From positions 1-64,000 of the forward strand of contig JADHXR010000008.1 in assembly GCA_016782865.1 (NCBI GenBank): a stretch of DNA of 64,000 bases, written 5' to 3'. Numbering within the stretch: the stretch's first letter is position 1; every line of letters begins with the position of its first letter. A program made the position numbers and the translations under genes. Below are positions 5,701 through 60,858 of the stretch, one piece after another. Below the pieces are notes generated by a model. The model was not told the DNA's origin, did no database searches, and saw nothing but the letters and a program-made list of their open reading frames with translations. The stretch comes from Phycisphaerae bacterium (lineage in GTDB: Bacteria > Planctomycetota > Phycisphaerae > Sedimentisphaerales > Anaerobacaceae).

Positions 5701-6959
5701 CCGGAGGTGATCAGGATATCACCATTGCTCGGATGGACGTCGATATTGGACGGCTGCGACGAGGGGATGCCCGCCCCGATGATCTCCCAGGTCTGCATGC
5801 CGTCATTGGAGCGGACAAGGCCCGTAGAACCGGCTTCAATATCAAGACTCCCATACACGACGCCCGTATCCTCTGCGTCGAAACTGAGCCATTCGAGCCA
5901 GGCGACAGCCTGAATCGGACTGCCGAACGAAGGCATATTCATGTGTTCCCAGGAGGACTGGTCGCTTTGATCTACGGAGAGAATCCAGTCGCCGACATGC
6001 GGAAAGAAGATGCGCCCCTCGTGGAAATCAATGTCCTTGATCATGTAAAACTCATAGAACGTATTTTTCGTGAAATCACCCCAAGTGACTCCACCGTCCG
6101 TCGATTCATAAATCAATTCGGCGATGGGCCGGGCTGCATCATCCCCATTGATCTTGTTTCGCACAGAAAGCACGAGGTGCCGTGGTTCAGCAGGATCCTG
6201 GGCTATCTTGGTTAACACCAGGTCCTCGGGAAGATTGGGATCCTCTATCCGGTAAGAGCCGTCTGTCGTATCAATGGCAATGATCTCATGGCCCGCATAG
6301 GTATAGAGTCCGGCGTGATCGACAAAAGCGACCGTCAGCAGCAGCGAATCCTCCACCATCATGATATTGGGAATCCTGATCTCAAAAAGTGGTTGAGGCT
6401 CCATGACCGGCATATTAACGGGTATGACCGAAATTGGTGTCAGGGTATCCAGGTTGATCTGCAGGGACGGATTCAATCCGCGGATGCAGAAAAGGGCCAA
6501 TTCCAGCTTGTTGTCCACCGGTGTATAGGCAACTACATATAGATCTTCTCCGTGAAGAAATGTCCTGACAGGAGATTCAAGAAGGACCTGCATGATCTCG
6601 GTCTGGTAATCATAGGAATAGACCTTGGCAGCCGTGACCACGGCAAAGTCTTCTAAGAACTGGATGTCAGTGACTTCTGTCAGCGTCGGATCGCCCACTC
6701 GCTGAAAGGTTGTTCCCTGATCATGGGAGACGAACAATCCAGGAGTGGCCCCTGCATATAAGTCATCCCGCACATAGGGACTCTGTGCAAGGACCATCAC
6801 CCCACCCCCGGGAGGTCCGCCCATGGATTTCCAAACGTATTCATTGGTCTGTGGCTCATCGGCACGTCCGACGGATTGGCCGCATGGCAAAAGACCCACG
6901 ACAATAACAAGCACGACACAGTGGGAGAATACCATCGTAATCCCGCATCTTTGTTCCAT
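2775..6959 (-). CDS. Giant exported Asp-box (BNR/sortilin-like) beta-propeller protein
   Basis: This is a 1394-residue protein starting at ATG 6959. The signal peptide (hydrophobic residues 9-30) is followed by repeated Asp-box motifs of the S-x-D-x-G-x-T-W type, such as VSHDQGTTFQ, TRDGGQTWRR, TTDGGTTWTA, SSNRGETWEP, STDRGTTWVE and SNDDGQTWKC. These mark several seven-bladed propellers in tandem, as in sortilin/VPS10 domains, sialidases and xyloglucanases. I see no clear catalytic acid arrangement, so binding is as likely as hydrolysis. No sorting tail or membrane anchor is visible at the C-terminus. It lies upstream of and close to the DUF5916-type gene, which suggests a surface polysaccharide-handling pair. 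Confidence 0.85.
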   Translation of the reverse strand: MEQRCGITMVFSHCVVLVIVVGLLPCGQSVGRADEPQTNEYVWKSMGGPPGGGVMVLAQSPYVRDDLYAGATPGLFVSHDQGTTFQRVGDPTLTEVTDIQFLEDFAVVTAAKVYSYDYQTEIMQVLLESPVRTFLHGEDLYVVAYTPVDNKLELALFCIRGLNPSLQINLDTLTPISVIPVNMPVMEPQPLFEIRIPNIMMVEDSLLLTVAFVDHAGLYTYAGHEIIAIDTTDGSYRIEDPNLPEDLVLTKIAQDPAEPRHLVLSVRNKINGDDAARPIAELIYESTDGGVTWGDFTKNTFYEFYMIKDIDFHEGRIFFPHVGDWILSVDQSDQSSWEHMNMPSFGSPIQAVAWLEWLSFDAEDTGVVYGSLDIEAGSTGLVRSNDGMQTWEIIGAGIPSSQPSNIDVHPSNGDILITSGNIAHYPHITRDGGQTWRRLLEATSMGDELVFDPHNPNHMVLVSELTDLFQTWDMGHTWDHLSERFHAARIFDLAASSDGNGHLFASLFGTGISQFPNLNRHEELLSGPEARFQWEHMYGSSDYAYDIELDPEDSRILYASYSPKLFETDASIFRYDGSTDEAGSWENILTVENAAGISSIAIDPRNRDKLYAGVIGQRGRILTSGDRGEHWEPLCEGLTFSTIHEMAIDPANDLVLYAAPWGGGLFKTTDGGTTWTALDIPTVSVASIVIDPDNPKHIYIGDRTRPYVFETHNGGTEWVPTVHLNTDMLYRVSAMTLHQGALIISVFNRLDKKISLFDEGPMSGTTFRLRDRQVEELQGAMARAAIGLVSTGETLYAVSHIRGVFKLEGNAWVDVSANLPDMGFNSITRDNSGTLYLAGGCDISLDGSPRVNDPAVVNNIYRSSNRGETWEPLLRGNAVGGSIKKVLAHPMEQGRLIAATQNGVFLSGDHGQTWNEQNDGLAFRNLGALAVGQDKVYAGSLGGGVFTGAIDQAALTWSGTTGPTPNLYNIRIILDPSNSQVIYATAYPGGVFKSTDRGTTWVECNFGLPSFQVVDPFLEGYYDLAVHPDDPDILFLGIYDHGIYISRDGAPTWVPIYAFNPAERFLRDLKTKRVAFDPAHVNHVYAASDKGVFFTPDLGNSWEALNAGLDTLDIISLEISDDGSVFAGSNGYGVYALNKETRTWTQMNRTTGFGQWAPWERRLYMYTALLFDPTTQGRIYLGNFPGGFFVSNDDGQTWKCSSLGLGNDGIFSLAMHPHNPQLMFAGTYNGIWKTDNQGASWSQTSAGMPDEQWPFCVVIDDQNPSVMYTATKNGMNKGFMGRNEFGGVVMKSTNGARTWFKIMDGLPVMCEYYQLIIHPEDHDRLFVSSTLGVFTSNDAGASWGPFNKGLPVEHFYIRDNVAENLKITPDNKYLVLGITAHGAWRVDIAGIIDK

Positions 6960-48180: not shown

Positions 48181-48586
48181 GCTTTTCCTGCAAAAATTAT
48201 GTAGTCACCACAGTACGCGGTACGGCCTGTCTGTAGTCGAGCCCGGGGCGTACATCATCTATTTCATAGTGACAGGCGCTATCATGATTCCGGCCTTGAC
48301 CGCCGGCAGGCGGGGATTTTGTCACTACGGCTGCTGGATGGCGCCCTTTATGATAATCGGGACAAGGCTCGGGCGATTGCTGAAGGCGCCCGCCCTGCAT
48401 TTGAAATCGGACAAGAGCCAATGCTCCGAATGCAAACGATGTGAGAAAGTCTGCCCGATGAGTCTGGAGGTGGCGAAGATGGTCCAGGCCGAGTCGATGC
48501 AGCACAGCGAATGCATTCTCTGTGGCTCCTGCGCCGACAATTGCCCGCGCGGTGTCATCCGCTACTCATTCGGCAAGCCCGCTTGA
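48179..48586 (+). pseudogene. Truncated membrane 4Fe-4S protein (NapH/PceC-like)
   Basis: The frame encodes one transmembrane helix (AYIIYFIVTGAIMIPAL), then RRGFCHYGCWMAPFMIIG and two ferredoxin motifs, CSECKRCEKVCP and CILCGSCADNCP. Related polyferredoxin membrane proteins carry four or more helices and run to about 300 residues. The N-terminal half is absent, and no ATG or ribosome site precedes it (the first possible start is TTG 48179). It is therefore a 5'-truncated gene. The cluster-binding cysteines are intact, so a short product is not excluded. Confidence 0.6.
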
Positions 48587-48730
48587 GCAGGGGGGGCTTG
48601 CCCCACCGAAGGGAACTGTGTCTCTACTCGCGGCCGGATTTCTCCGCTCACTTTACTCGGTCGAAAAGACAGAATCTCTGGGATGGCATTAACGCTGTCC
48701 CTTAGGCCGGCAAGAGAAACAATAACACAT

Positions 48731-48760
48731 CCTTTTGCCAATTGGGGAAAATGCGTAATC
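48731..48760. repeat. 30-bp intergenic repeat, copy A
   Basis: The core CTTTTGCCAATTGGGGAAAA and the following TGCGTAATC match copy B at 52599-52628 in 27 of 30 positions. Copy A is downstream of the truncated 4Fe-4S gene and of the convergent pseudopilin gene. Confidence 0.65.
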
Positions 48761-48873
48761 TTAGCAGCCGCACTTCGCGTGTTAATCCGCATGCGTTTAT
48801 CGCATTAGGGCAGACAGCAGAGCTTGCAGGTTTGCGATTCTGCGGAAGGAGTCCTCATGCACCTTTAATTCTC

Positions 48874-49719
48874 TTAATATCCCAATCTGCCCCAGATGGC
48901 TTCCTGCATCTTCTGCAAATCAGCCAGGCCCTCGTCGGTAGTGGGCGTATAGTTATACGGCGGGTTTACCATCTTACCGGCCCGTATCGTCTCGGCTCCT
49001 CTGTACTTCCAGTAGTTGCTGTGGCCGTCGGCGAAAGAGACGTTCGTGCCGTCCCCATGCCGGACAAACGGAGGGTCCCACCATCTGGCCGTGGTGTAGT
49101 GAATCGCATAGCTGTCCGGGCTGATCCGCCCTTCATCAAGAAAAACGAGTCTATAGGCCGGAGCGGGGACGGAGATTTCCGATCGCTTCTTGACCATCAA
49201 CACCGTCCTGCCCACTCTCACTCCCCGGTTGCCTGTATACGTTCCAGTTGCATCGAAACAACCGTTCATCCCGTAGCCTGTGGAGTACGTGCGCATCTCT
49301 CCACGAATACCTGTCGGGCACCGGTACACTTTTTCGGCCGCGCAGTACGGAAACAGCGCTCCGGCTCGTATTGCCTGCCTTTGTATGTCAAGCGGTCGTT
49401 GTTCTCCCTGCGCGAAACCGGAAGCGCAGTCGTTGCCAACCCAGTAGGGCTCGCCCTTGTGAGGGCCCGATGTGGGCACAGGGGCGGCCGGGGCGCCGCC
49501 AGGGTTCCAATAGGCTTCGCCGTTGACAAGCCTGTCGTCGTTTTCATCAGCATACATCATCCAGCCGAGTGTAAGTGTCTTTAGATGATTAAGGCAAACC
49601 GCGCGTCTGCCCTGCTCTCTGGCCCGATTCAGTGCGGGCATGAGGACGGCCATCAGTATTGCGATGATCGCAATTACAACCAATAGTTCTATTAACGTAA
49701 ACCCTTTCCGCTTGCACAT
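48874..49719 (-). CDS. Pseudopilin-like protein with H-X9-DG tail
   Basis: The 281-residue protein starts [18 protein letters not shown], a prepilin peptidase site and hydrophobic helix. It continues [31 protein letters not shown], the usual planctomycete core, and ends with [22 protein letters not shown], the H-X9-DG motif. It is longer than and diverged from the pseudopilin at 8414 but of the same family. It stands alone on the minus strand. The role (minor pilin, secretion or surface structure) is unknown. Confidence 0.88.
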
Positions 49720-50287
49720 GACTGCTGCTCATCTCTCTCTCAAACAGAGGTAATGGGTTTCATTCGTGAGTTCATCAGCATTATTATGACACAAATAGGT
49801 GCCGGACTGCAAGTGTAAGACTAAATTTAAAGCGCCATCTCTGAAAACGCAGGACATTAGTCGCGGCGGGCCCTGAAAATCCACAGACTTCACCACCTCT
49901 CTCATACTATATTTTCCTGCCCTGCGTCAAGAAGAAGCTGAATTTCCCCCGGCTCCCGGCTTGCCGGCAGGGCAGGTTCAACCTGCCAGAATAGTGTTTG
50001 AATTGAGGTGAGATTACGGTATGATAGGACTTGTTAGGGCTTGCACAGACTTCCCAGTGAAGTGTAGACGGGAAATCCGAGTTTACAGTCACTCAACCTT
50101 CCGCGGCAGGAGAAAGGAGGAGCAAAAGGGCAATAACGAATCCGATCTAGTCAAATGGATTTCGGCCTGAATCAAAGGCCACGGACACTTCGCATCATTA
50201 ACTGCGGATGGAGTGCAACAAAATTGAGAACGCAAAAATGTGCTTGGGTGAGGTTATGTTTTTTTTCAATCTGGAAGGGGAAAAGTG
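49720..50287. other. Divergent intergenic region
   Basis: This 568-base region lies between the divergent pseudopilin and discoidin genes. It includes a GGCAGGTT-C-AACCTGCC hairpin near 49971-49987 and a purine-rich GGAGAAAGGAGGAG stretch near 50108 without a credible gene after it. Promoters for both flanking genes must lie here. Confidence 0.4.
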
Positions 50288-52480
50288 ATGTTTGAGAAGC
50301 TGTTCAGTATGTTGTCTTGCATTATAGTAACTGCCTCTGTGGTCTCAGCAGCGCCTGTTGTCCGCGTGGACCTGTCCCAAAGTGGAGACGTGGAACGTGG
50401 CTGGATTGACTGGAACACCGATAACGTTCGGCTGGGCAATGCCGACACGTCGCGGCAGTTCCTCAACGAGGCTGATTTTGATGTTGATTTCACGATCGAT
50501 TTCATCAGGATCGACAGCCGGAACCGTGCCGATATGGGCGATAGCATCCCGTTGCACGATCTGCTCGAAGATGCATTCAAAGAAAGCGATCCTTTTGACA
50601 TGGCGATCAAGGGCTTGTCCGCCGGGATCTATACCTTCAAGGGTTACCACCACGACACGAACGAAGATGTTACGAACGATGACGGGACGCTTAATATCAC
50701 CGTCCAGGACGCCGATGGGATGCGATTGGTGGCCGACCATCTGCAACAGTCGTGGGGGCCCAGACCTACATTTGTTGCCTCCTCAACTTTCAGGTTCCGC
50801 TCCGACGGCGTCCATGATGTCATTATCACGCTTGGCGACAACAACGATGGCATCCACAATGAGGCGTATTTGAACGGATTCGAATTGAGCGTCTGGATTT
50901 CGCGCGATCAGGCCAGCCGGCCAAGCCCGGAAAACGGCGAGAGCGATGTCTCGAAGGACATGGTATTGAACTGGCAGCCGGGGACATACGCGCCGGCAAT
51001 CGGCGGGCACCGAGTCTATGTGAGCGATGTCTTCTCCGACGTCAACGACGGGGCGCCAGCCACTCTTGCGGGAATAACGAGCGTGCCGGAATACGTACCC
51101 GCTGAACTTGGCTTTGGGACCACCTATTACTGGCGTGTCGATGAGGCCAACGACGTTACGGGCTGGAATAAGGGCCAGGTCTGGATTTTCACTACCGAGC
51201 CGCTCGCCTATGCCATGCCGGGCTCAGCCATCACGGCGTCGGCATCGAGCTGGCACGACGACACCATGGCGCCTGGCAAGACCGTGGACGGCTCAGGTTT
51301 GGATGCCGACGGTTTACATTCTGCGAGTGAGAACGACATGTGGCTCAGCGGGGCCGGCGACGTCAGCCCCTGGATCGAGTACGAATTCGACCGCGTGTAC
51401 AGCCTGCACGAGATGTGGGTGTGGAACTTCAACCAGACGTTCGAGTCAATTGTGGGGTTCGGGCTGAAGGACGTGATGATTGAGTATTCTGCGGATGGGA
51501 CTAATTGGGTCGCTCTCGCGGACAACCTGGAGCTGCCCGCTGCGGCCGGAGCGCCTGCGGCCGCTCACGATATTGCGATCGATTTTGGCGGCGCGGTCGC
51601 CCGTTACGTGCGGATCGCGGCCAAGGGCAACTGGGGTGGCTGGAACCGTTATGGTCTGAGCGAAGTACGATTCTTCTACATTCCCATGGCTGCGAGAAAC
51701 CCGCAGCCCGAGGCCGGCGCCGGCGGCATTAGTCCGGTTCCTCTTCTGACCTGGCGTTCAGGTCGAGTGGCCACCTCGCATGACGTCTATTTTGGCACGG
51801 ATGAACAGGCTGTCCTGACCGCTACCGAACCCGTCGCCACAGTCGCGGATCCTTTCTTCGATGCCGGCCACCTGTCCCTTTCAACCACCTATTTCTGGCG
51901 CGTCGATGAAACTAATCAGGCTCAGACACCTGCGGTTTGGGAAGGCAAGGTCTGGAGCTTCTCCACAAGTGCCTTCTTGGTACTGGATGACATGGAGGGC
52001 TACAACGACGAGGAAGGGCAGGGTACTCGGATCTATGAAGTCTGGGTCGACGGCTGGAACGTCGCCGGCAACGGCGCACAAGTCGGTTACCTCACAGTAC
52101 CGTCGGTCGAGAAGCTTCTCGTTCACGGCGACAGGCAGTCCATGCCGCTGCTGTACGACAACACAAGCGAGCCCCATTCGGAAGCGGCGCTGGCCTTTGA
52201 TCCTGCCTTAGACTGGACACAATTCGGCATCAGGACGCTTGTACTATATTTCCTTGGTAGCGAGGCAAATGCGGGCGGGAAGCTCTACGTGAAGGTCAAT
52301 GCGGTCAGAGCGGACTATGGCGGAGACGCCGGCGACATTGCCAGGCCCGAATGGACTCAGTGGAGTATCGACCTGGTATCGCTGGGGACGAACCTGCAAA
52401 ATGTCACGGGCATGACCATTGGAATCGAAGGCGGCGGCTCCGGCATCATCTTTATCGATGACCTGCAGTTGTGGCCTTAG
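50288..52480 (+). CDS. Exported discoidin / fibronectin-like surface protein
   Basis: The start is ATG 50288 after GAAGGGG. The 730-residue protein has a signal peptide (LSCIIVTASVVSAA), an N-terminal malectin- or CBM-like jelly roll (VVRVDLSQSGDVERGWIDWN to VHDVIITLGDNNDG), an Ig-like domain (GTTYYWRVDEANDV), an F5/8C discoidin domain (WIEYEFDRVYSLHEMWVWNFN, VRFFYIPMAARNPQP), a second HDVYFGTDEQAV domain and a C-terminal jelly roll ending FIDDLQLWP. The order and wording of the last four domains match the protein at 9323-12349, so they are paralogues differing in the N-terminal module. Likely extracellular glycan binding. Confidence 0.85.
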   Translation: MFEKLFSMLSCIIVTASVVSAAPVVRVDLSQSGDVERGWIDWNTDNVRLGNADTSRQFLNEADFDVDFTIDFIRIDSRNRADMGDSIPLHDLLEDAFKESDPFDMAIKGLSAGIYTFKGYHHDTNEDVTNDDGTLNITVQDADGMRLVADHLQQSWGPRPTFVASSTFRFRSDGVHDVIITLGDNNDGIHNEAYLNGFELSVWISRDQASRPSPENGESDVSKDMVLNWQPGTYAPAIGGHRVYVSDVFSDVNDGAPATLAGITSVPEYVPAELGFGTTYYWRVDEANDVTGWNKGQVWIFTTEPLAYAMPGSAITASASSWHDDTMAPGKTVDGSGLDADGLHSASENDMWLSGAGDVSPWIEYEFDRVYSLHEMWVWNFNQTFESIVGFGLKDVMIEYSADGTNWVALADNLELPAAAGAPAAAHDIAIDFGGAVARYVRIAAKGNWGGWNRYGLSEVRFFYIPMAARNPQPEAGAGGISPVPLLTWRSGRVATSHDVYFGTDEQAVLTATEPVATVADPFFDAGHLSLSTTYFWRVDETNQAQTPAVWEGKVWSFSTSAFLVLDDMEGYNDEEGQGTRIYEVWVDGWNVAGNGAQVGYLTVPSVEKLLVHGDRQSMPLLYDNTSEPHSEAALAFDPALDWTQFGIRTLVLYFLGSEANAGGKLYVKVNAVRADYGGDAGDIARPEWTQWSIDLVSLGTNLQNVTGMTIGIEGGGSGIIFIDDLQLWP

Positions 52481-52598
52481 TTTTCCGGAGAAAGTGATCT
52501 CCGGGTGGGCAATTCGCATAGTCCGCAAGAGGGGCTCGTGACAACGGGAAGCATCCATGCTTGCCCGACCGAACACAACATAACACAACACAACACAC

Positions 52599-52628
52599 GC
52601 TTTTGTCAATTGGGGAAAATACGTAATC
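52599..52628. repeat. 30-bp intergenic repeat, copy B
   Basis: It matches copy A at 48731-48760 in 27 of 30 positions (shared core CAATTGGGGAAAAT and CGTAATC). An ACACAACAC-rich stretch precedes it. The function is unknown. Confidence 0.65.
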
Positions 52629-52757
52629 CCGGAAGTCATACTCCGATCTCGATTCAAAGCGCGATCTCAGAAAATGTTGCCCTGTAATACCGTTCGAGTG
52701 CAGACCATCGATTCCACGAGCGCAGAACACCTCCGAGGTTGCCTTATGAGATTGCGT

Positions 52758-52930
52758 GGGCAGGAAATATGGGTATACGGAAACTATGTAAGCCAGGCCT
52801 CCTGCCGGTTAAAGTTGTTTCGGCTACAATGAGCCGTTAGCCGGCGGCTTTTTGCGCCACAGCGGCATGAACCTGGCGATGCCGAGGTACAGCCGCGGAT
52901 TGCGATGGGTCCGGGCAAACCGTTACAAAA
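52758..52930 (+). pseudogene. Left remnant of a tyrosine-recombinase module
   Basis: GGAAATATGGGTATACG (from 52764) matches the end of the small gene at 59943-60167. CCGTTAGCCGGCGGCTT (52833 on) matches 60161 on. The following bases translate HSGMNLAMPRYSRGLRW, which parallels RHNGVNLTTSRYSRGSRG of the integrase remnant at 60205-60627. These are thus the scraps of a second copy of the same recombinase module, in the same orientation. The two copies bracket the AT-rich island. Confidence 0.65.
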
Positions 52931-53079
52931 TGTAACGCTTTGAAAATGCCCTCGGTGGACCTTGCGGCCGCTGGAGTCGAGTGCGTGGACGGCGCCGGCT
53001 GATGTGGTGAACCTGTATAAGTATTTGTGCAACGAGCTGTCCACTGAATACCGTGAAATTTGCTGCTTTTTCTATAGAT

Positions 53080-53120
53080 TTTCACGATTATGTTGACAAA
53101 AGAGTGAAAAAGTACATACT
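53080..53120 (+). promoter_or_regulatory. Promoter and possible operator of the Fic gene
   Basis: TTGACA (53093-53098), a 16-base spacer and CATACT (53115-53120) end 6 bases before the Fic ATG, so the transcript would be nearly leaderless. The inverted pair TTTTCAC (53080-53086) and GTGAAAA (53104-53110) straddles the -35 box, a typical operator arrangement. Autoregulation is inference. Confidence 0.5.
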
Positions 53121-53126
53121 GTAGCT

Positions 53127-54014
53127 ATGGCAAAAGTATTACATGTTTTTAATTCAATCAATCGCTTAAGAGAGCGGTATTATGCCGCGTCTATCGGTAA
53201 ACAATCGCTTATGAAATTATTGAGTGAAGCAGAGGTTGCCGAGCAGGTGTATAACTCCAATGCCATCGAGAACAGCACGCTTACTCTCGAAGAAACAGAG
53301 AAAATCCTTCTGCAAATAGACCTTGATAGATACATCTCTGAAAGAGAAATTTTTGAAGCGAAAAACCTCGCGCGGGTGGTTTCTTATATCGATACAAAAG
53401 CCAGGGAACAGGAACTCACTCTTGATGTTATTCTATCGCTGCACAAAATGCTCATAGCAAATATCCGGGATGATGTCGCCGGAAGATTTCGCAAAGACGG
53501 TGAGTGGGTCAGGGTTGCCGGCCACATAGCACCCGACCCAAAAGAAGTAGCAGGAAGACTGGAAAAAATGATTGCGGGGTATAACGCAAACAGCCATGAA
53601 AATATTATAAAACGTATCGCGCTGCTGCATCTTACATTTGAACACACACACCCATTCGTTGATGGTAATGGCCGTATCGGAAGAGTGATAAACAATTATT
53701 TGCTCATACGAGAAGGCTTTGTGCCGATGAATATTAAATTCATTGACAGAAGAATGTATTACGATGCTTTCAAGGAGTTTGGCGAAAAAGGTAATACAAA
53801 AATCATGGAGGAAATAGTCGGCAAAGCGCTTACGAATAGTTATTACAAGAGGCTTGCGTATCTGGAAGGCGCGCACATTATGACGCTTGCCGAGTATGCG
53901 AAAAGGTACAAGGTATCACACTCTAATTTAATAAATAAGGCAAATCGCCAAACCATAGAAGCTTTTCTTGAAAAAGGCGTTTGGAAGATTCGCGTACATC
54001 AGAATGAAAAATAG
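53127..54014 (+). CDS. Fic-domain protein with N-terminal inhibitory helix
   Basis: The 295-residue protein carries the full Fic active site HPFVDGNGRIGR (His175 to Arg186), which transfers AMP from ATP onto hydroxyl side chains. The helix SNAIEN (Ser44-Glu48-Asn49) is the class II self-inhibition motif, whose glutamate blocks the ATP site. A winged-helix-like C-terminal segment (LAEYAKRYKVSHSNLINKANRQ) follows. Related Fic proteins are often linked to type I restriction loci, and an hsdR scrap follows directly. It is AT-rich compared with the chromosome and is the first island gene. The target is unknown. Confidence 0.93.
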   Translation: MAKVLHVFNSINRLRERYYAASIGKQSLMKLLSEAEVAEQVYNSNAIENSTLTLEETEKILLQIDLDRYISEREIFEAKNLARVVSYIDTKAREQELTLDVILSLHKMLIANIRDDVAGRFRKDGEWVRVAGHIAPDPKEVAGRLEKMIAGYNANSHENIIKRIALLHLTFEHTHPFVDGNGRIGRVINNYLLIREGFVPMNIKFIDRRMYYDAFKEFGEKGNTKIMEEIVGKALTNSYYKRLAYLEGAHIMTLAEYAKRYKVSHSNLINKANRQTIEAFLEKGVWKIRVHQNEK

Positions 54015-54017
54015 TCT

Positions 54018-54179
54018 ATGAACAAAGCGGAAACCAGAGCGGAACTGATTGACCCGAAGCTGAAAGATGCCGGCAACGGCAAAGAAATTTATCAGATTTG
54101 TATGAAGACCGGCGTCGAAGGTTTGATCGCAGGTTTTGGCACAGCGAATCTGGCTGATTTTGTGGCACTTCGATGTTAG
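54018..54179 (+). pseudogene. hsdR N-terminal scrap (type I restriction remnant)
   Basis: ATG 54018 to TAG 54179 encodes 53 residues. MNKAETRAELIDPKLKDAG is the typical start of type I restriction HsdR proteins, which run to about 800-1000 residues. The rest (GLIAGFGTANLADFVALRC) does not match the next HsdR segment. A large deletion is the likely cause. It follows the Fic stop by 3 bases, suggesting the Fic gene once headed a restriction operon. Confidence 0.6.
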
Positions 54180-54387
54180 GTTTGAGTTTTTGAGAGGTCC
54201 GCAGCGCACAGAGATATTTTAGGAAATGGCGTAATGGCGGAGAAATTGGCGTTCATAGTGAATGGGTAAATGCCCAAAATGGCTTGGCTCGCTCGTGGCG
54301 ACGCCGTAATACTTCGTATTTGTGCGGCGACTGTGATTCAGTCGATTGAGAAAATGGAGAACTTAACTCTTTGAAAGGATACGTATT
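54180..54387. other. Short gap with regional repeat, upstream of the island operon
   Basis: These 208 bases include CTCGTGGCGACGCCGTAAT and TGCGGCGACTGTGATTCAGTCG, which look like a dispersed repeat (GGCGAC, CAGTCG arms). No gene is supported. The promoter of the five-gene operon should be near its right end, although I see no consensus. Confidence 0.4.
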
Positions 54388-54978
54388 ATGAAAAAGGCAC
54401 TGGTGGTAATAGATGTTCAGAAACTCTACACGGATGAGGAATCGGACATGTACTGCGAGGATTCGGCAGCAACAGTAGACCAAATAAACAAACTGATCAG
54501 TGAATTTGAGAAGAGGAAAGAGCCGATTTATCTGATTCGGCATGTACACAAGGTCGATGGATCTGACCTCGGACGAATGTTTGATTTTTCTGGAGAACCA
54601 GAAGAAGATTTCAACTTCAAAGAGGGTTCAGATGAGGTTGAATATGACGATCGTCTGAAAATACCTAAGAGTTGTCTTGAGATTGTGAAGAATCGATATT
54701 CGGCCTTTGAAGGAACAGATTTGGAAAAACATCTCCAGAAAGCAAAAGTTGAGGGGGTTGTCATTTGTGGTTTTATGACTAACTTCTGCTGCGAGTCAAC
54801 GGCGAGAAGTGCGCACGACAAGGACTACTTTGTGGATTTCGTTCTCGATGCCACGGGTACCCCTGGCACGGAGAATATCGACGAGAAGGAGATGCGGAAA
54901 TTTGTCGGCGAGTGTCTAGAGAGTGGCTTTTCCCGTGTAATGTCCACGGAGGACTTCATGTCGGAGAGGAACAAGTAG
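54388..54978 (+). CDS. Isochorismatase-family cysteine hydrolase
   Basis: The 196-residue protein has AAAGGA upstream and is full length. Its catalytic triad is visible: Asp9 (LVVIDVQ), Lys101 (EIVKNRYSAF) and Cys134 (GFMTNFCCESTARSA). The family hydrolyses amides or the vinyl ether of isochorismate (nicotinamidase, carbamoyl hydrolases, isochorismatases). Within this operon it could cleave an amide or process the acid fed to the ligase. It is the first gene of the five-gene run; the ligase starts 27 bases after its stop. Confidence 0.9.
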   Translation: MKKALVVIDVQKLYTDEESDMYCEDSAATVDQINKLISEFEKRKEPIYLIRHVHKVDGSDLGRMFDFSGEPEEDFNFKEGSDEVEYDDRLKIPKSCLEIVKNRYSAFEGTDLEKHLQKAKVEGVVICGFMTNFCCESTARSAHDKDYFVDFVLDATGTPGTENIDEKEMRKFVGECLESGFSRVMSTEDFMSERNK

Positions 54979-55005
54979 TCGTGCTGCTGCAAGAGAGGTG
55001 CTTAG

Positions 55006-56520
55006 ATGCAATTTGGTGTTTCAGAGGCTGTTGCGCATTGGGGAAGATATAGAAGTCAGGTTTGCGCTGTGATTCAAGGAACTCGGAAGATTTCCTTTGG
55101 CGAGTTGAACAAGCTTGCGAACGGGATGGCTATTTCGCTCCAGGAAAAATATGCGACTGGTGAACGCATTGGTATTGCTGTAAAGCCGAAGTTAGATTTC
55201 TTGGTATCCCTACTCGGTATCCTAAGGGTGGGCAAGTCTGCCGTGCTCCTTAACACCGGCTTACCAGATGAAGCCCTTGCGGTCAACATGAAAGACGCTG
55301 ATCTGCGCTTCGTAATACATGATGACGTAACAGAGGCGAGGAAAGCGCTCTTTGCTGGTTCAGCGATGGTTCAGGGATTAGGAATAGACGCTGTACTCAA
55401 ACGGGTGAACGAGGAAAGTTACTGTGAGCCTGTGTGGCCATTGCGTGGACCCGGCGATGAATGGGGAGTTCTTTATTCGTCGGGCACAACAGGAATACCT
55501 AAAGGTATTGAACGAGACCATAACTCTATCGTCACGGAACTCCTTGGGTGGTGCCTTGAACTGGGACTTTCTCGAAAGTCTACTTTCTACATCGGTAGGC
55601 CTATATATTACACTGGCGGGCTCGTACTGGCGCTTTCGACTCTACTCGTTGGTGGGCGCATCGTCCTCAATGATTTCGCCAATGACAACGACCCAAATGA
55701 GGTATGGGAAGACTATCAGCAGACCCTAAAGGAAATGTCACTTGAATGGGCCTTCTTTGTTCCCGATCAGTTGAGGAGTTTTCTGAGAATAGCACAGACT
55801 CAGGCCACTCCTCTGCGGCAGGCCCAAACGATTCTAGTAATGGGCGCCCCCATTTCGGGTGACGATAAGGTTGCCGTGAAGTGCGAACTTGGTTCGGACG
55901 TCGTAGAATCTTGGGGCAATTCAGAGTCTCTAGGTACAATCACTGACCCTGATGATATTAAAACGCGACCAAATTCGATAGGAAGACCATTTCTGACGGA
56001 CGAGCTTTATATAGTAGATGAAAACTGCAAACAAATCATACAGCCAGATACTTTAGGGAGGATTGCCGGAAGTGAAGAAGCCGGCTTTTATAAATATTGC
56101 AACCGCCCCGATGCAACAAGACGAGTAAAACAAAACAATCTTATTATATCAGAAGACATAGGATATGTTGATAAAGATAACTACTTTTATATTAGAGGAA
56201 GACAACAGGACTGCATTGTAAGAAATGGTGAAACCTTATTTAAATCGGATATCGAAGGCAAGTTGAGACGAATAAAATCAGTAGCGGAATGTTCCATCAG
56301 TACGAGAGATATAAATGATACTTTATTTGAGCTTATTGCAGTGGTTGTTCCTTCGGATTCACATTCGGCGAACAAAGATGTATTCTTAGACGAAGTCAAT
56401 GCTGTTCTAACGCCAAATGAAAAATTGACCGACGTTCTATTGATAAAATCGATGCCACATACTTCCTCTGGCAAAATAGATAGGACTGCTGTTGACAAAT
56501 TAGTGAGAGGTCAACAATGA
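55006..56520 (+). CDS. Acyl-adenylating (ANL superfamily) ligase
   Basis: The 504-residue enzyme activates a carboxylic acid with ATP. Core motifs: LYSSGTTGIPKGIERDH (P-loop, A3), WGNSESLGTIT (A5), SEDIGYVDKDNYFYIRGRQQD (A7-A8) and, at the C-terminus, SSGKIDR with catalytic Lys490 (A10). No carrier-protein or condensation domain is fused and none is nearby, so it may form an acyl-CoA or pass the acyl-AMP directly to an amine. It overlaps the next gene by 4 bases (ATGA), indicating translational coupling. The gene becomes markedly AT-rich in its second half. Confidence 0.92.
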   Translation: MQFGVSEAVAHWGRYRSQVCAVIQGTRKISFGELNKLANGMAISLQEKYATGERIGIAVKPKLDFLVSLLGILRVGKSAVLLNTGLPDEALAVNMKDADLRFVIHDDVTEARKALFAGSAMVQGLGIDAVLKRVNEESYCEPVWPLRGPGDEWGVLYSSGTTGIPKGIERDHNSIVTELLGWCLELGLSRKSTFYIGRPIYYTGGLVLALSTLLVGGRIVLNDFANDNDPNEVWEDYQQTLKEMSLEWAFFVPDQLRSFLRIAQTQATPLRQAQTILVMGAPISGDDKVAVKCELGSDVVESWGNSESLGTITDPDDIKTRPNSIGRPFLTDELYIVDENCKQIIQPDTLGRIAGSEEAGFYKYCNRPDATRRVKQNNLIISEDIGYVDKDNYFYIRGRQQDCIVRNGETLFKSDIEGKLRRIKSVAECSISTRDINDTLFELIAVVVPSDSHSANKDVFLDEVNAVLTPNEKLTDVLLIKSMPHTSSGKIDRTAVDKLVRGQQ

Positions 56521-57716
56521 GAGCTTACTGGATGGAGCTAGTTAAGCAAGCTGTTTCAAAATGGGACACTCCTTTTTACTTATCAACGTGGCAACCAATT
56601 CAGAATGCTTTGGAAGAACTTAAAGGGCTTGCGACTGACTTGCCAATTCGGCACTGGTTATCTTTCAAAACTCATCCTGTGGCTCCTTTAATTAGGATGT
56701 GGCGCGATATTGGATACGGCGTGGAGGTTGTGAGTGAGTATGAGTTTCTTGCAGTTTTGAAAGAAGGTTTTAAGCCAGACCAAATATTAGTTAATGGTGT
56801 TGCTAAACAAAATTGGTTGCCCCGTCATAAAATCGCCGGGATTCGTGTACATTTCGATTCACTCAGCGAAATTGACACATTAATTGCGCAGGCTAAGGCG
56901 TGCAAATGGCGAATCGGTCTTCGTTGCAATACAAGTGAAGAATATGATCCTGACGAGCCTGCTTTTGGGACACAATTTGGAATGATTAGAGATGAGGTGG
57001 AAAGAGCTGCCGAAACTTTACGCAAGAAAGCGATAAATATCGAATCGATACACTTTCATTTGAGGTCGAACATTTCATCGCCGACCTCTTATGAGAAAGC
57101 TATAAAAGAAACTGCTCGAATATGTAAATCAACAAACTTGAATCCAACGTACATTGATTGTGGAGGGGGATTCCCGGTGTCTGGCGAGCGCTCTTATGAA
57201 CAAAAACAAGATCCTCCGCAATTTGATTTGAACGCACTTCGCAAGATTCTTCTAGATATACCGAACCAAATACCAAGCGTTTGCGAGATCTGGTTCGAAA
57301 ACGGTAGATATCTCACCGCAAGATCTGCGGTACTTGTTGTGCAAGTCATAGATATAAAAAGCCGCGATGAATCACGTTATCTCATTTGCGATGGGGGTAG
57401 AACTAATCATGCACTTGTGTCAGATTGGGAAATTCATGATTTTTTTACAATACCGAGACGAAACGGCCCCTTAAAGCTAACAACTATATGTGGACCTACT
57501 TGTATGGCCTTTGACAGGTTGGTAAGAGCGGATTTATCTTGTGATATCGCCATAGGCGATTACATTATTTGGATGAATGCAGGAGCATACCACATACCGT
57601 GGGAAACTCGGTTTTCACATGGATTCGCGAAGGTGATGTGGTGTGATGATAATGGAAATATGTCACTAACTAGAAAAATGGAAAGCTTTGCAAAATGGTG
57701 GGGTTGCTGGGAATAA
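56517..57716 (+). CDS. Fold-type III PLP decarboxylase (DAP/ornithine decarboxylase family)
   Basis: The 399-residue protein follows the alanine-racemase-like decarboxylase pattern. The PLP lysine is Lys51 (HWLSFKTHP, in place of the common YAxKAN). IDCGGGFPVSG binds the phosphate and FENGRYLTA matches the EPGR motif. The C-terminal GPTCMAFDRL and GDYIIWMNAGAYH correspond to the substrate-binding loop and GAY motif. Relatives decarboxylate diaminopimelate, ornithine, lysine, arginine and carboxy(nor)spermidine. In this operon it probably supplies an amine or polyamine. It starts inside the ligase stop and is followed after 22 bases by the GNAT-like gene. Confidence 0.9.
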   Translation: MRAYWMELVKQAVSKWDTPFYLSTWQPIQNALEELKGLATDLPIRHWLSFKTHPVAPLIRMWRDIGYGVEVVSEYEFLAVLKEGFKPDQILVNGVAKQNWLPRHKIAGIRVHFDSLSEIDTLIAQAKACKWRIGLRCNTSEEYDPDEPAFGTQFGMIRDEVERAAETLRKKAINIESIHFHLRSNISSPTSYEKAIKETARICKSTNLNPTYIDCGGGFPVSGERSYEQKQDPPQFDLNALRKILLDIPNQIPSVCEIWFENGRYLTARSAVLVVQVIDIKSRDESRYLICDGGRTNHALVSDWEIHDFFTIPRRNGPLKLTTICGPTCMAFDRLVRADLSCDIAIGDYIIWMNAGAYHIPWETRFSHGFAKVMWCDDNGNMSLTRKMESFAKWWGCWE

Positions 57717-57738
57717 TAATAAGTGGAACCTTAAATAA

Positions 57739-58632
57739 ATGAGTTTTAGACGAGTCTCACCTAATTTTATTATACGAATAGGAAACGGAAAGGCCCTCGG
57801 TGTATCTGTATTTTTTGCTTGTATTACTATTTCCGAATTTATTCTTCCAGCCATTGGAGCAGTAGGTACTACAGTCTCATCAACTTATTATATTATGGCA
57901 GGGACAATAAGCGTTTCACTCGCACTAATAGCGTCATACTTGCGTGGTCGCATGAAGCTTATACCAGACTCATTGATCGATGAGATGAGTTCAGATGGAT
58001 CGTATTCCTGTGAATTCTGTTCAGGCCCAAAGCTACGCGAAGCTTGTGATATGACCAAGCCGTACTATGGCAATGAATATGTTTCCGCGGATATCGCTGA
58101 ACAATGGCGAATGAAGAATCCTAAAGCATTTGTTCAAATAACTAATTCAACTGGGGAATTATGCGCTTGTTTCGGAATATTAGCTCTTAGCGACAGCTTT
58201 ATGGACCAATATATCAAAGGTAAAGTGGCCGACGCGCAACTCGGAGCAGAAGACATCTTATCATATGAAGAGTCAAAGAAATGTAACAGATTATATATTA
58301 GTGGAGTAATTACCCGCGACCATCCTAAATATGTTAGCCGTAAAAGGGCTTGTGTAATGATATGGGCAATGATCTTTTACGTGAAACACCTTTTTGCTCT
58401 TAGAAAGAATAGGGAATTATTCGCAGTAGCAGTAACAAAAGATTCTGAACGTATATTGAAACATTTGGGTTTTAAAATAGTATCTATAGCTAAGAATCGT
58501 AGGGATAAACATGATATGTATTGTTTAAACCTTACGAAAACAACTTGGAATGAAATGATGCATAAGGTTGGTGATTATTCAGCTATGTGTGAAATGCATC
58601 TTGATAATACCACCTCCAAAATTGAAGGATAA
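57739..58632 (+). CDS. Membrane-anchored GNAT-like acyltransferase candidate
   Basis: The 297-residue protein has two N-terminal transmembrane helices (about residues 18-40 and 48-66). The cytoplasmic domain reads PYYGNEYVSADIAEQWRMKNPKAFVQITNSTGELCACFGILALSDSF, then LYISGVITRDHP, and ends FAVAVTKDSERILKHLGFKIV. The last segment is the typical GNAT beta6-alpha4-beta7 pattern and the middle resembles the acceptor half of that fold. The classic Q/RxxGxG/A motif is weak, so acyltransfer is probable but unproven. It is one of the most AT-rich genes in the window. It could acylate the amine made by the decarboxylase or the last enzyme (inference). Confidence 0.65.
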   Translation: MSFRRVSPNFIIRIGNGKALGVSVFFACITISEFILPAIGAVGTTVSSTYYIMAGTISVSLALIASYLRGRMKLIPDSLIDEMSSDGSYSCEFCSGPKLREACDMTKPYYGNEYVSADIAEQWRMKNPKAFVQITNSTGELCACFGILALSDSFMDQYIKGKVADAQLGAEDILSYEESKKCNRLYISGVITRDHPKYVSRKRACVMIWAMIFYVKHLFALRKNRELFAVAVTKDSERILKHLGFKIVSIAKNRRDKHDMYCLNLTKTTWNEMMHKVGDYSAMCEMHLDNTTSKIEG

Positions 58633-58649
58633 TTTGAAGAGCATAATTT

Positions 58650-59681
58650 ATGAATTGTCGAACATCTATAAAACTCAAAAAACTAATACCCATTGATATA
58701 GATAACTGTGCTGATATATCTGATGTTCTCAGTTATATGTCTCAAGCATCCTTTGGAGGCAGATCTGTTGGAAAAGCTTTTTCGATTCTAAGGAATATTG
58801 TTGACGATCCAGACTGCGCCTTGATTCTTACCGTATCCGGAGCCATGACCGTAGCTAAGCTTGGACGTATATTCGGCAGTTTGATATCAAAATCTATTGT
58901 GAAAGTGGTTATTACAACTGGTGCGATTGTTACGCATAGTCTTGTCGAAGAGCTTGGAATGCATCATCATAAGGCACCTAGCAACCTTTCCGATGAGGAA
59001 TTATGTGTACGAAAACTAAACAGGATATATGATTCCATTGAGCCCGAATCCAATCTTGAGAAACTAGAGGAATTAGCACATCATGTGTTTTCGAGCATGG
59101 ATGCAACGAGTGAATACGCAAGTTTTGAGATTATACGCACGCTTGCATCGAGCATGTTAAAGCCAGGAGGGTCAACAGGATTCTTGCGGTCGGTTCTGGA
59201 ACGCGACATAAACGCATACGTTCCTGCTTTCACAGATTCGGAACTGGGTCTATACCTATTTCGTTACAATGAAGCTCTATGCTCGACTCAAATGAAGAAA
59301 CTCGTATATGATCCTATGCGAGATTTGGCAGAATACGCAAACTGGATCCGGTCTAAAAAGCGTATTGCTTTTTTGACCATCGGCGGCGGTGTTCCGCGAA
59401 ACTGGGGTCAACAGATGATTCCCTTTTTGAGATCGCAATCGGAGCGTGATAAGCTTCCTTGCAAGACTGTCCTCCCTGAAGTAGTGGCCGCTGTAAGGAT
59501 TTGCCCCGATCAGGAAAGCTTAGGCCATCTTTCAGGTTCCACATATTCAGAAGGCATTACGTGGGGCAAATTTCTACCTAGCCACAAGGAGAATTTCGTC
59601 GAAATCAAATGTGACGCCACCATAATTTTCCCACTTCTAGCCAAGGTGCTCATCGACTATGTCGACGAAGCCAGGAAGTAA
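58650..59681 (+). CDS. Deoxyhypusine synthase-family protein
   Basis: The 343-residue protein matches deoxyhypusine synthase across its length. TVSGAMTVAKLG and VVITTGAIVTHSLVEELG are NAD-binding segments; INAYVPAFTDSELG parallels the eukaryotic SPALTDGSLG; FLTIGGGVPRN is the glycine-rich loop; GHLSGSTYSEGITWGK carries Lys307, equivalent to the catalytic lysine that takes the aminobutyl group; and CDATIIFPLL ends the fold. Eukaryotic enzymes modify eIF5A, which bacteria lack; bacterial homologues are thought to make homospermidine-like polyamines. It therefore probably transfers an aminobutyl group from spermidine to a small amine. It is the last gene of the operon, 17 bases after the GNAT-like gene. 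Confidence 0.9.
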   Translation: MNCRTSIKLKKLIPIDIDNCADISDVLSYMSQASFGGRSVGKAFSILRNIVDDPDCALILTVSGAMTVAKLGRIFGSLISKSIVKVVITTGAIVTHSLVEELGMHHHKAPSNLSDEELCVRKLNRIYDSIEPESNLEKLEELAHHVFSSMDATSEYASFEIIRTLASSMLKPGGSTGFLRSVLERDINAYVPAFTDSELGLYLFRYNEALCSTQMKKLVYDPMRDLAEYANWIRSKKRIAFLTIGGGVPRNWGQQMIPFLRSQSERDKLPCKTVLPEVVAAVRICPDQESLGHLSGSTYSEGITWGKFLPSHKENFVEIKCDATIIFPLLAKVLIDYVDEARK

Positions 59682-59819
59682 TTCGGCATCCTAATCCGAG
59701 GGAAAGGACGGTGGGGCAACTTTCGGCCTGAGCTCAAGGCGAAGGAGCCCCACTCTGCCAAGTCGAAGCGAAAGAGAGATTGAAGGAATCGCCGCCCACG
59801 GCTTCTGGCGGATAAAGTA

Positions 59820-59834
59820 ATCACAATTTGTGAT
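59820..59834. promoter_or_regulatory. Palindromic site ATCACAA-T-TTGTGAT
   Basis: This is a 7-bp perfect palindrome with one central base in the 261-base gap after the island operon, about 110 bases before the small recombinase-module gene. It has the form of a dimeric regulator site; the regulator is unknown. Confidence 0.4.
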
Positions 59835-59897
59835 ATAAAGAGGAAAGCTGTATAGCGAAGAAAACACCCGCTGACCGTGGCGGTTGGCCGATAGAGT

Positions 59898-59940
59898 GAA
59901 TTCAGAATTTAGAATTTAGAATTTAGAAGTTAGAATTCAG
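59898..59940. repeat. AATTTAGA short tandem array
   Basis: GAATTCAG is followed by three AATTTAGA-type units and ends in TAGAATTCAG, forming direct and partly palindromic repeats directly before the ATG at 59943. It resembles the GATTCTCGATG array inside lnt. Confidence 0.6.
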
Positions 59941-59942
59941 TA

Positions 59943-60167
59943 ATGACATACGAGGGCAGTATTTATATGAGATATGCAGGTCTTACCGATGAGCCGGACC
60001 GAATCAAACGGGGCCGGGGCAACCCCGTGGATTTCCGCGTAATGCAACAATTCACGTCCGAGCCGGCTGCTCGGCAATGGGAAAGGCGAATGCTGGGCCA
60101 GGGCTGCGAGCAGGATACCACGGGCAAAGGCTGGAAATATGGGTATACGTTTTCAATGCGACGTTAG
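59943..60167 (+). CDS. Small GIY-YIG-like protein of the recombinase module
   Basis: The 74-residue product reads YEGSIYMRYAGLTDEPDRIKRGRGNPVDF, then EPAARQWERRMLGQG. The IYxRYxGLT, the R-x4-G-N-P step and the W-E pair fit a minimal GIY-YIG-like fold, though the family match is by eye. It ends GWKYGYTFSMRR, the segment also found in the left remnant at 52758. It precedes the integrase remnant in the same direction, so the two probably formed one module. The RGRGNP stretch, where EHGNP is expected, may signal decay. Confidence 0.5.
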   Translation: MTYEGSIYMRYAGLTDEPDRIKRGRGNPVDFRVMQQFTSEPAARQWERRMLGQGCEQDTTGKGWKYGYTFSMRR

Positions 60168-60204
60168 CCGGCGGCTTGTTGCGGCCGGGTGATAGAATGA
60201 TTGA

Positions 60205-60627
60205 GAAAGCTCTATACAGACACAAGAGAAGCGGCTATCTCTCGAGGTCGATGAGGGCGGGGCACTGCTGATAGCCGCGCGGCAAGGGCTGGCGGTTATG
60301 GGAGTAGCCGGACCTGAGCGGGCGAGGTTGTACGGGCTGGCTTGTGAATCAGCCTTGCGATTGACTGAGCTGAGGAGTCTGTGGGTGTCTTCGCTTGACT
60401 TTGAGGGCTGCGCGGGGAGCCTGTTGGTTGCGAGCGGGCGCCATCCGAAAATCGCACGGTGGATTATGCGGCACAACGGCGTGAACTTGACGACGTCGAG
60501 GTACAGCCGCGGCTCGCGAGGGCAGGAGTCTGAGGCGAGCGGCAAGCTGGCGGACCTTTCGGTCTTGCCGCAAGAAGAGCAAAGGCAACAGGAACGGATG
60601 ATGCGAACGCCAGTGAAAATGTCTTGA
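60205..60627 (+). pseudogene. Tyrosine recombinase (integrase) with N-terminal and central deletions
   Basis: The frame contains RQGLAVMGVAGPERARLYGLACESALRLTELRSL, holding the first catalytic arginine (ELR). Then, after a gap where about 90 residues with the Lys and His-x-x-Arg motifs should be, come GSLLVASGRHPKIARWIMRHNGVNL and SRYSRGSRGQESEA with the nucleophilic tyrosine. A TGA at 60202 precedes it and the N-terminal DNA-binding domain is missing. It cannot be active. It lies 148 bases from the 3' end of tRNA-Leu, the usual integration target side. Confidence 0.8.
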
Positions 60628-60774
60628 TGCTGCGTTTGGCGCGTGAATGCGAAAAACAGCATCTTCAGGCGAACGGCAATGAAGAGAAACATGCGGGTGA
60701 CATCGCAAAGGCGAATTGCTCCAAACACGGTTTAGAATCCAAGAAACCGCTGCCACAGCCGCACAGAAGTACAT

Positions 60775-60858
60775 TGCCGAAGGAGGGAGTCGAACCCTCA
60801 CCCTGTTGCCAGGACGGGATTTTGAATCCCGCGCGTCTGCCAATTCCGCCACTTCGGC
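60775..60858 (-). tRNA. tRNA-Leu (anticodon CAA)
   Basis: The minus strand gives an 84-base cloverleaf: acceptor GCCGAAG pairing with CTTCGGC, D-arm with GGCGGAATTGGCAGACGC, anticodon stem CGGGA/TCCCG around loop TTCAAAA (CAA), a long variable arm and T-arm GAGGGTTCGACTCCCTC. The long variable arm is the leucine class II feature. CCA is not encoded. Its 3' end faces the AT-rich island and the integrase remnant. Confidence 0.95.

Follow-up and report, generated by a model that had tools for sequence, protein, structure and literature searches.

What is an enzyme of the deoxyhypusine-synthase (DHS) family doing beside an acyl-adenylating ligase and a pyridoxal-phosphate (PLP) decarboxylase in a planctomycete genome? 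Enzymes of this family are known from hypusine formation in archaea and eukaryotes, while bacteria use them for homospermidine or caldomycin, and the homospermidine synthase of plants has already taken the family into specialised metabolism, that of the pyrrolizidine alkaloids. The question is raised by five open reading frames (ORFs) at positions 54388 to 59681 of the window, meaning the whole 64,000-nucleotide stretch analysed here (contig JADHXR010000008.1 of Phycisphaerae bacterium, assembly GCA_016782865.1). A first-pass annotation, made from the DNA letters alone, had stated that this set is not known from any described pathway, and indeed none matching it was found: the chemistry is known, and the combination is a variant of it. 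The reading tentatively preferred here is that of a mobile cassette for small-molecule biosynthesis, in which an acid would be activated and coupled to an amino acid and the product decarboxylated, with partner genes at hand.

The operon, its recurring core and its island

All five genes lie on the + strand, separated by consecutive gaps of 27, -4, 22 and 17 bp, the ligase and decarboxylase genes sharing a 4-bp overlap (ATGA). In coordinates, spacing and overlap, this tight run is just as the first-pass annotation described it, and co-transcription of the five genes is probable. The first gene encodes an isochorismatase-family cysteine hydrolase (54388..54978, +, 196 amino acids (aa); PF00857, E 8.9e-33), the second an adenylating ligase of the ANL superfamily (P0002, 55006..56520, +, 504 aa; PF00501 AMP-binding, E 9.5e-43), and the third a PLP decarboxylase of the alanine-racemase fold (P0003, 56517..57716, +, 399 aa), which matches the ornithine/diaminopimelate/arginine decarboxylase families of Pfam (PF02784/PF00278, E 4.2e-21 and 2.3e-10). 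These three form the core. They are followed by gene 4 (57739..58632, +, 297 aa), an orphan whose hydrophobicity indicates an N-terminal anchor, and by gene 5 (P0005, 58650..59681, +, 343 aa), the DHS homologue (PF01916, E 2.9e-63, and its place in the tree). Pfam thus upholds four of the five family labels first given, the exception being the GNAT label of gene 4. The catalytic positions are also present, as had been claimed, in the hydrolase, ligase, decarboxylase and DHS homologue. The operon was likewise correctly described as free of any carrier protein, the two carriers of this genome (PF00550) both being encoded elsewhere. A promoter and terminator scan remained near background, and no conserved RNA or riboswitch was found except a tRNA. 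Inside the ligase gene, GC content drops from 0.52 to 0.35 (window 55650-56400), with the reading frame unbroken.

Is such a grouping more than chance? The complete five-gene set was not found in any other genome searched; the co-occurrence that was to be expected of a conserved operon was seen for the three core genes, in one other genome. G033, a member of another class of the same phylum, has the hydrolase (56% identical) together with the decarboxylase (52%) and the ligase (37%), so the ligase and the PLP decarboxylase do recur as a pair, and three of five genes recurring in another genome argue for a grouping beyond chance. This second copy (locus L222, 6815-11235, - strand, on the 16.6-kb contig 12 of G033) carries its core genes all on one strand; the assembled decarboxylase sequence includes a short stretch of N. 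Its motifs are identical to those of the window: CMAFD, SDWE and ENGR in the decarboxylase, ESWGNSE in the ligase, and D9/K101/C134 in the hydrolase. Neither gene 4 nor the DHS homologue is found in L222; the partner there is a squalene-cyclase-like membrane protein, at most 388 aa long, whose matches to squalene-hopene cyclases are weak and whose C-terminus holds a hydrophobic segment. The locus lies between tRNA-Asn at one end and, at the other, genes for a serine recombinase and a DUF2924 protein, and its GC content is 45-51% at the core versus about 60% for the contig. An island copy with a recombinase, low GC and an exchanged partner suggests a three-gene core that travels on islands with a variable partner. 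Among 392 genomes of the phylum, exactly one close decarboxylase relative was found, that of G033, all others being at most 30% identical; the 161 genomes of the order hold no close one, and viral contigs searched with decarboxylase and ligase alignments gave nothing.

The window copy also sits on an island. The operon is carried by a variable segment (48216..60772, no strand, limits approximate) delimited by GC content and by synteny with contigs C39 and C45 of G475, a sister species of the same genus; a tRNA-Leu (CAA) stands at its border (60775..60858, -; ARAGORN and Rfam). Operon GC is 38-49%, versus about 55% for the surrounding genome stretch. In G475, about 450 bp separate this tRNA-Leu from the ABC gene that corresponds to window 47.15-48.2 kb, and the approximately 12.5 kb between 48.2 kb and this tRNA is missing from the corresponding site. 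As a low-GC segment beside a tRNA-Leu and absent from a sister species, it marks the operon as acquired cargo: the operon is horizontally acquired, and its genes behave as one acquired unit. The window genome is a draft, 84% complete with 5% estimated contamination, but the island flanks are common to the sister species on both sides. No repeat of the tRNA 3′ end, as expected of an att site, was found at the left boundary. Elsewhere in G475, the stretch equivalent to window 33.4-44.7 kb abuts an SPFH-type gene (window 61.0-62.3 kb), so a second difference covers window 44.7-61.0 kb, with the ABC gene and tRNA-Leu on a separate contig there.

Several neighbours share the segment. Upstream, within its low-GC part, lies a gene for a Fic/DOC-family protein (53127..54014, +; PF02661, E 5.7e-22), not clearly an operon member, and then a short ORF resembling the N-terminus of the type I restriction subunit HsdR, apparently a fragment (54018..54179, +; translation judged by eye only). 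Downstream, beside the tRNA, a degenerate ORF at 60298..60627 (+), without a Pfam match, resembles by eye pieces of a tyrosine recombinase.

Enzymes of the core

In the decarboxylase, K51, GGG216-218, ENGR261-264, C329 and Y358 are present, together with HLRS and GPTCMAFD motifs, so that the PLP lysine, GGG, ExGR and cysteine features of ornithine and diaminopimelate decarboxylases are all there. What is missing is the acidic residue beside the catalytic cysteine, which gives CD in ornithine decarboxylase (ODC) and CE in diaminopimelate decarboxylase (DapDC): the ODC and DapDC relatives compared have C-loops CDxxD and CExxD, respectively, whereas the window protein and its ortholog read CMAFD, with Cys329 followed by Met330. 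In ODC, arginine decarboxylase (ADC) and DapDC, this acidic residue reads the distal amine of the substrate, while FigC, an N-citrylornithine decarboxylase acting on an already acylated amino acid, has a methionine at that position (PMC7857480). Moreover, the protein scores only 127.9 bits against the lysA equivalog model, which requires 297.9, and 101.5 bits against TIGR03099, with a curated cut-off of 478, and in the tree it falls outside the ODC group (support 99/98) on a long branch. Judged by its residues, it is thus unlikely to be an ornithine, lysine or diaminopimelate decarboxylase, and the plain production of a diamine, as first proposed, is unlikely as well, methionine replacing the acidic residue in the ortholog too. 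Its substrate may instead be a conjugated amino acid. The methionine alone does not fix the substrate, since two PLP decarboxylases of the same order have it in another context, with a CMEKD loop: L187 (genome G483, about 9.4-10.6 kb), whose neighbours are sugar transferase, epimerase, GNAT and thiolase genes, and L188 (G485, about 7.9-9.1 kb). Single-sequence AlphaFold models of the products of genes 3 and 4 had pLDDT values below 40 and were not used.

More distant decarboxylases were encountered in other settings. On an Antarctobacter plasmid (L099, 5890-8927), two tandem distant homologues precede a 76-aa ORF and a methyltransferase gene. On contig C135 of the window genome (L199, about 2881-6840), an S-adenosylmethionine (AdoMet)-decarboxylase homologue, an Acetyltransf_6 protein, an ATP-grasp ligase and a CTPxD-type PLP decarboxylase stand in tandem, and Streptomyces plasmids (L095, L096) carry a similar ATP-grasp/GNAT/decarboxylase set.

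The ligase, complete as an ANL enzyme (A3 at 157, A10 Lys490), has an unusual A5 motif, ESWGNSE, conserved in its L222 ortholog (37-39% identical). It shares 22-39% identity with everything found, the lower value being that to a TIGR03098 ligase; TIGR03098 itself (cut-off 592 bits) is not among its best 25 models, of which the weakest reaches 84.7 bits. A weak match to a restriction-enzyme model was taken as chance.

In the hydrolase, D9, K101 and C134 are present and conserved in the G033 ortholog. The closest relatives found besides the latter are encoded on three Rhizobium plasmids (45-47%), adjoined in 3/3 by a gamma-glutamyltransferase gene (ggt), which on the R. binae plasmid is followed by amidase, aldehyde dehydrogenase, histone-deacetylase-family and ABC transporter genes. 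These neighbours suggest that the hydrolase may cleave an amide.

The DHS homologue, gene 4 and a possible pathway

The PF01916 domain spans most of gene 5's product (214 bits, residues 26-332), and the catalytic lysine noted at first sight, Lys307, lies in the WGK of an SEGITWGKF motif. The protein is 34.6-41% identical to 114 proteins of a single clade, which occurs in Planctomycetota, Nitrospirota, Thermodesulfobacteriota, Acidobacteriota and other phyla. Of 41 proteins encoded next to members of this clade, 10 belong to the arginase/agmatinase family and 4 are carbon-nitrogen hydrolases. Since agmatinase neighbours match the speB/speY clusters described for homospermidine (PMC10407285), the clade appears to consist of SpeY-type homospermidine enzymes and not of hypusine enzymes. 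SpeY-type enzymes use putrescine (PMC9992855, PMC10407285), so that spermidine, the aminobutyl donor first suggested, is not indicated. The tree places the DHS homologue within the agmatinase-linked clade (support 100/99), but its branch is long, at 1.8 where the median is 0.37. Of the 76 positions that are nearly invariant in the clade, it has altered 16, and no other member more than four. The simplest reading of this divergence is a change of substrate, with loss of constraint as the alternative.

Does this protein belong to the conserved set? None of the other operon genes was found near the 39 nearest relatives examined in the phylum, nor, beyond three weak and unconvincing matches, near the best 80 of 564 relatives in the genome contig collection, where further copies may exist. 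It is also missing from the G033 core operon. The idea that it is a fixed member of the set thus does not hold, and it seems to be a local add-on outside the conserved core. The window genome holds no further DHS homologue; a single-sequence pattern scan of genome contigs with it gave nothing, and no homologue was found in the phages searched. Four contigs listed as viral in IMG/VR (L182-L185) do carry SpeY/agmatinase-clade DHS homologues, 30-36% identical to P0005; by BLASTP, no SpeY had been reported in virus genomes (PMC9992855).

Gene 4 had been called a membrane-anchored GNAT-like protein. The anchor stands, as a single N-terminal hydrophobic segment (Kyte-Doolittle maximum 2.08, windows starting at residues 18-26). 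The GNAT label is unconfirmed, given that the protein has no match in Pfam (no GNAT profile even at E 10), PADLOC or the PDB, and that its sole relative in the 392 phylum genomes is 22-25% identical; plasmids and viral contigs yielded nothing usable, and its single-sequence model (pLDDT 36.5) is uninformative. A GNAT-like C-terminus is possible. A weak match to a reovirus domain was attributed to chance.

How might these proteins work together? The ligase would activate a carboxylic acid as its adenylate, and the acyl group would be coupled to an amino acid; this might happen directly, or CoA or a carrier encoded elsewhere might mediate it. From the resulting conjugate the decarboxylase would then remove the alpha-carboxylate of the amino acid, yielding an N-acyl amine, and the hydrolase might trim or deprotect an amide. 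Through an imine on Lys307, the SpeY-type DHS homologue could transfer an aminobutyl group to a free amine of the product, while membrane-anchored gene 4 might be an acyltransferase or hold the pathway at the membrane. The order of steps, the aminobutyl transfer to the product and the role of gene 4 are all deduced from the families involved. A polyamine amide, the product first guessed, is possible and unproved. It is possible, though doubtful, that all of this applies together: an undescribed cassette of hydrolase, ANL ligase and FigC-like decarboxylase, moving on islands across the phylum with exchangeable tailoring enzymes, in which a DHS homologue from homospermidine synthesis adds aminobutyl arms to an acylated amine.

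Competing readings and known systems

Several points weigh against a biosynthetic cassette. No transporter, regulator or carrier protein is encoded in the operon; the core is known from just two genomes as searched, and its order in L222 (hydrolase, decarboxylase, partner, ligase) differs from that of the window. D303 of the decarboxylase, which its ortholog also has, may correspond to the aspartate of the ODC specificity helix, which makes a basic group in the substrate possible. No agmatinase (PF00491) was matched in the 84% complete genome. Relaxed constraint is another possible cause of the fast divergence seen in genes 3 and 5.

The rival that survives best, itself unlikely, is aminoacylation of a surface glycan or lipid: the ligase would load an amino acid on a carrier from elsewhere, the decarboxylase would convert it to an amino-acyl group, and the membrane protein would transfer it to a surface polymer, as may also be the case for the exosortase-A-associated ligase/decarboxylase pair. 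Two of the better-scoring other decarboxylase relatives speak for it. In Burkholderia (L097), the relative (TIGR03099, 559 bits) lies directly behind a ligase of the TIGR03098 type (700 bits), and in a genome of the same order (G511, L076/L186, 3-2810) a TIGR03098-like ligase, a TIGR03099-like decarboxylase (423 bits, below the cut-off of 478) and a GNAT protein form an overlapping row. The anchor of gene 4 and the two carriers elsewhere in the genome would suit this as well. However, P0003 is far below the TIGR03099 cut-off (101.5 bits) and TIGR03098 is outside the best 25 models of P0002; the C-loop reads CMAFD and not CTPxD; the operon has no exosortase, glycosyltransferase or carrier gene; and the DHS homologue is left unexplained.

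Less likely again is a polyamine module, with the decarboxylase producing a diamine, the SpeY-like enzyme turning it into homospermidine or a relative, and the ligase and hydrolase conjugating and deconjugating the result. SpeY does make homospermidine (PMC9992855), and ODC-type decarboxylases adjoin DHS homologues elsewhere (L101 in Sphingomonas; L080-L092). D303, if aligned with the ODC aspartate, would fit, as would the Rhizobium hydrolase relatives beside ggt, among which that of R. binae also has histone-deacetylase-family and ABC transporter genes nearby. This reading is contradicted by a decarboxylase outside the ODC clade and with no aspartate next to its cysteine, by an L222 core devoid of a DHS homologue, and by the lack of agmatinase in the genome.

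Lower still in probability is a molecule for warfare or defence, whether a toxin of the adenylate-like or acyl-polyamine type or a signal of infection; gene 4 would then provide self-protection. Microcin C, in which the related decarboxylase MccE completes an aminopropyl decoration, is the comparison made here, and MccE belongs to the same subfamily as FigC (PMC7857480). Both copies lie on island-like segments, with a serine recombinase in one and a degenerate recombinase-like ORF in the other, and the Fic gene and HsdR-like fragment adjoin the operon. But an island location fits any cargo, PADLOC gives just one weak and probably spurious match, and no precursor peptide or exporter was recognised, nor any known defence gene in L222. 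Least probable is passenger DNA in decay, genes that arrived together on an element and then lost constraint: the long branches of genes 3 and 5, the degenerate recombinase-like ORF and the HsdR-like fragment would suit it, but all five frames are intact with their motifs kept, and the core is 37-56% identical to that of G033 with identical active-site motifs.

If the biosynthetic cassette is the right reading, a DHS-family enzyme would be at work in bacterial specialised metabolism, extending the range of the family. The core triad also provides a signature with which to search for more clusters, the decarboxylase motif GPTCMAFD and the ligase motif ESWGNSE, and it is small enough to be expressed and tested.

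Which known systems come closest? The decarboxylase resembles the FigC/SbnH/AcsE/MccE/BtrK subfamily in its alanine-racemase fold, its non-ODC character and its methionine next to the cysteine, as in FigC (PMC7857480). It differs in its CMAFD loop and in being only about 27% identical to a relative from a siderophore cluster (L098), and it is paired with an ANL ligase in place of a siderophore synthetase. In vicenistatin biosynthesis, the established ligase and PLP decarboxylase VinN/VinO likewise act in sequence on an amino acid, which is decarboxylated once it has been loaded on a carrier (PMC11284099). They require the carrier VinL, whereas the window operon has neither a dedicated carrier of this kind nor a polyketide synthase, a distinction drawn by description only. 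The exosortase-A-associated TIGR03098/TIGR03099 pair shares the adjoining ANL ligase and PLP decarboxylase, followed in L076 by a GNAT protein, but both window proteins score far under the cut-offs and no exosortase accompanies them. Finally, the DHS homologue shares with SpeY its fold family, catalytic lysine, GGGVPRNW and WGKF motifs and well-supported clade membership (100/99); it is set apart by an identity of just 35-41%, by its 16 changed positions out of 76, and by a genome without agmatinase.

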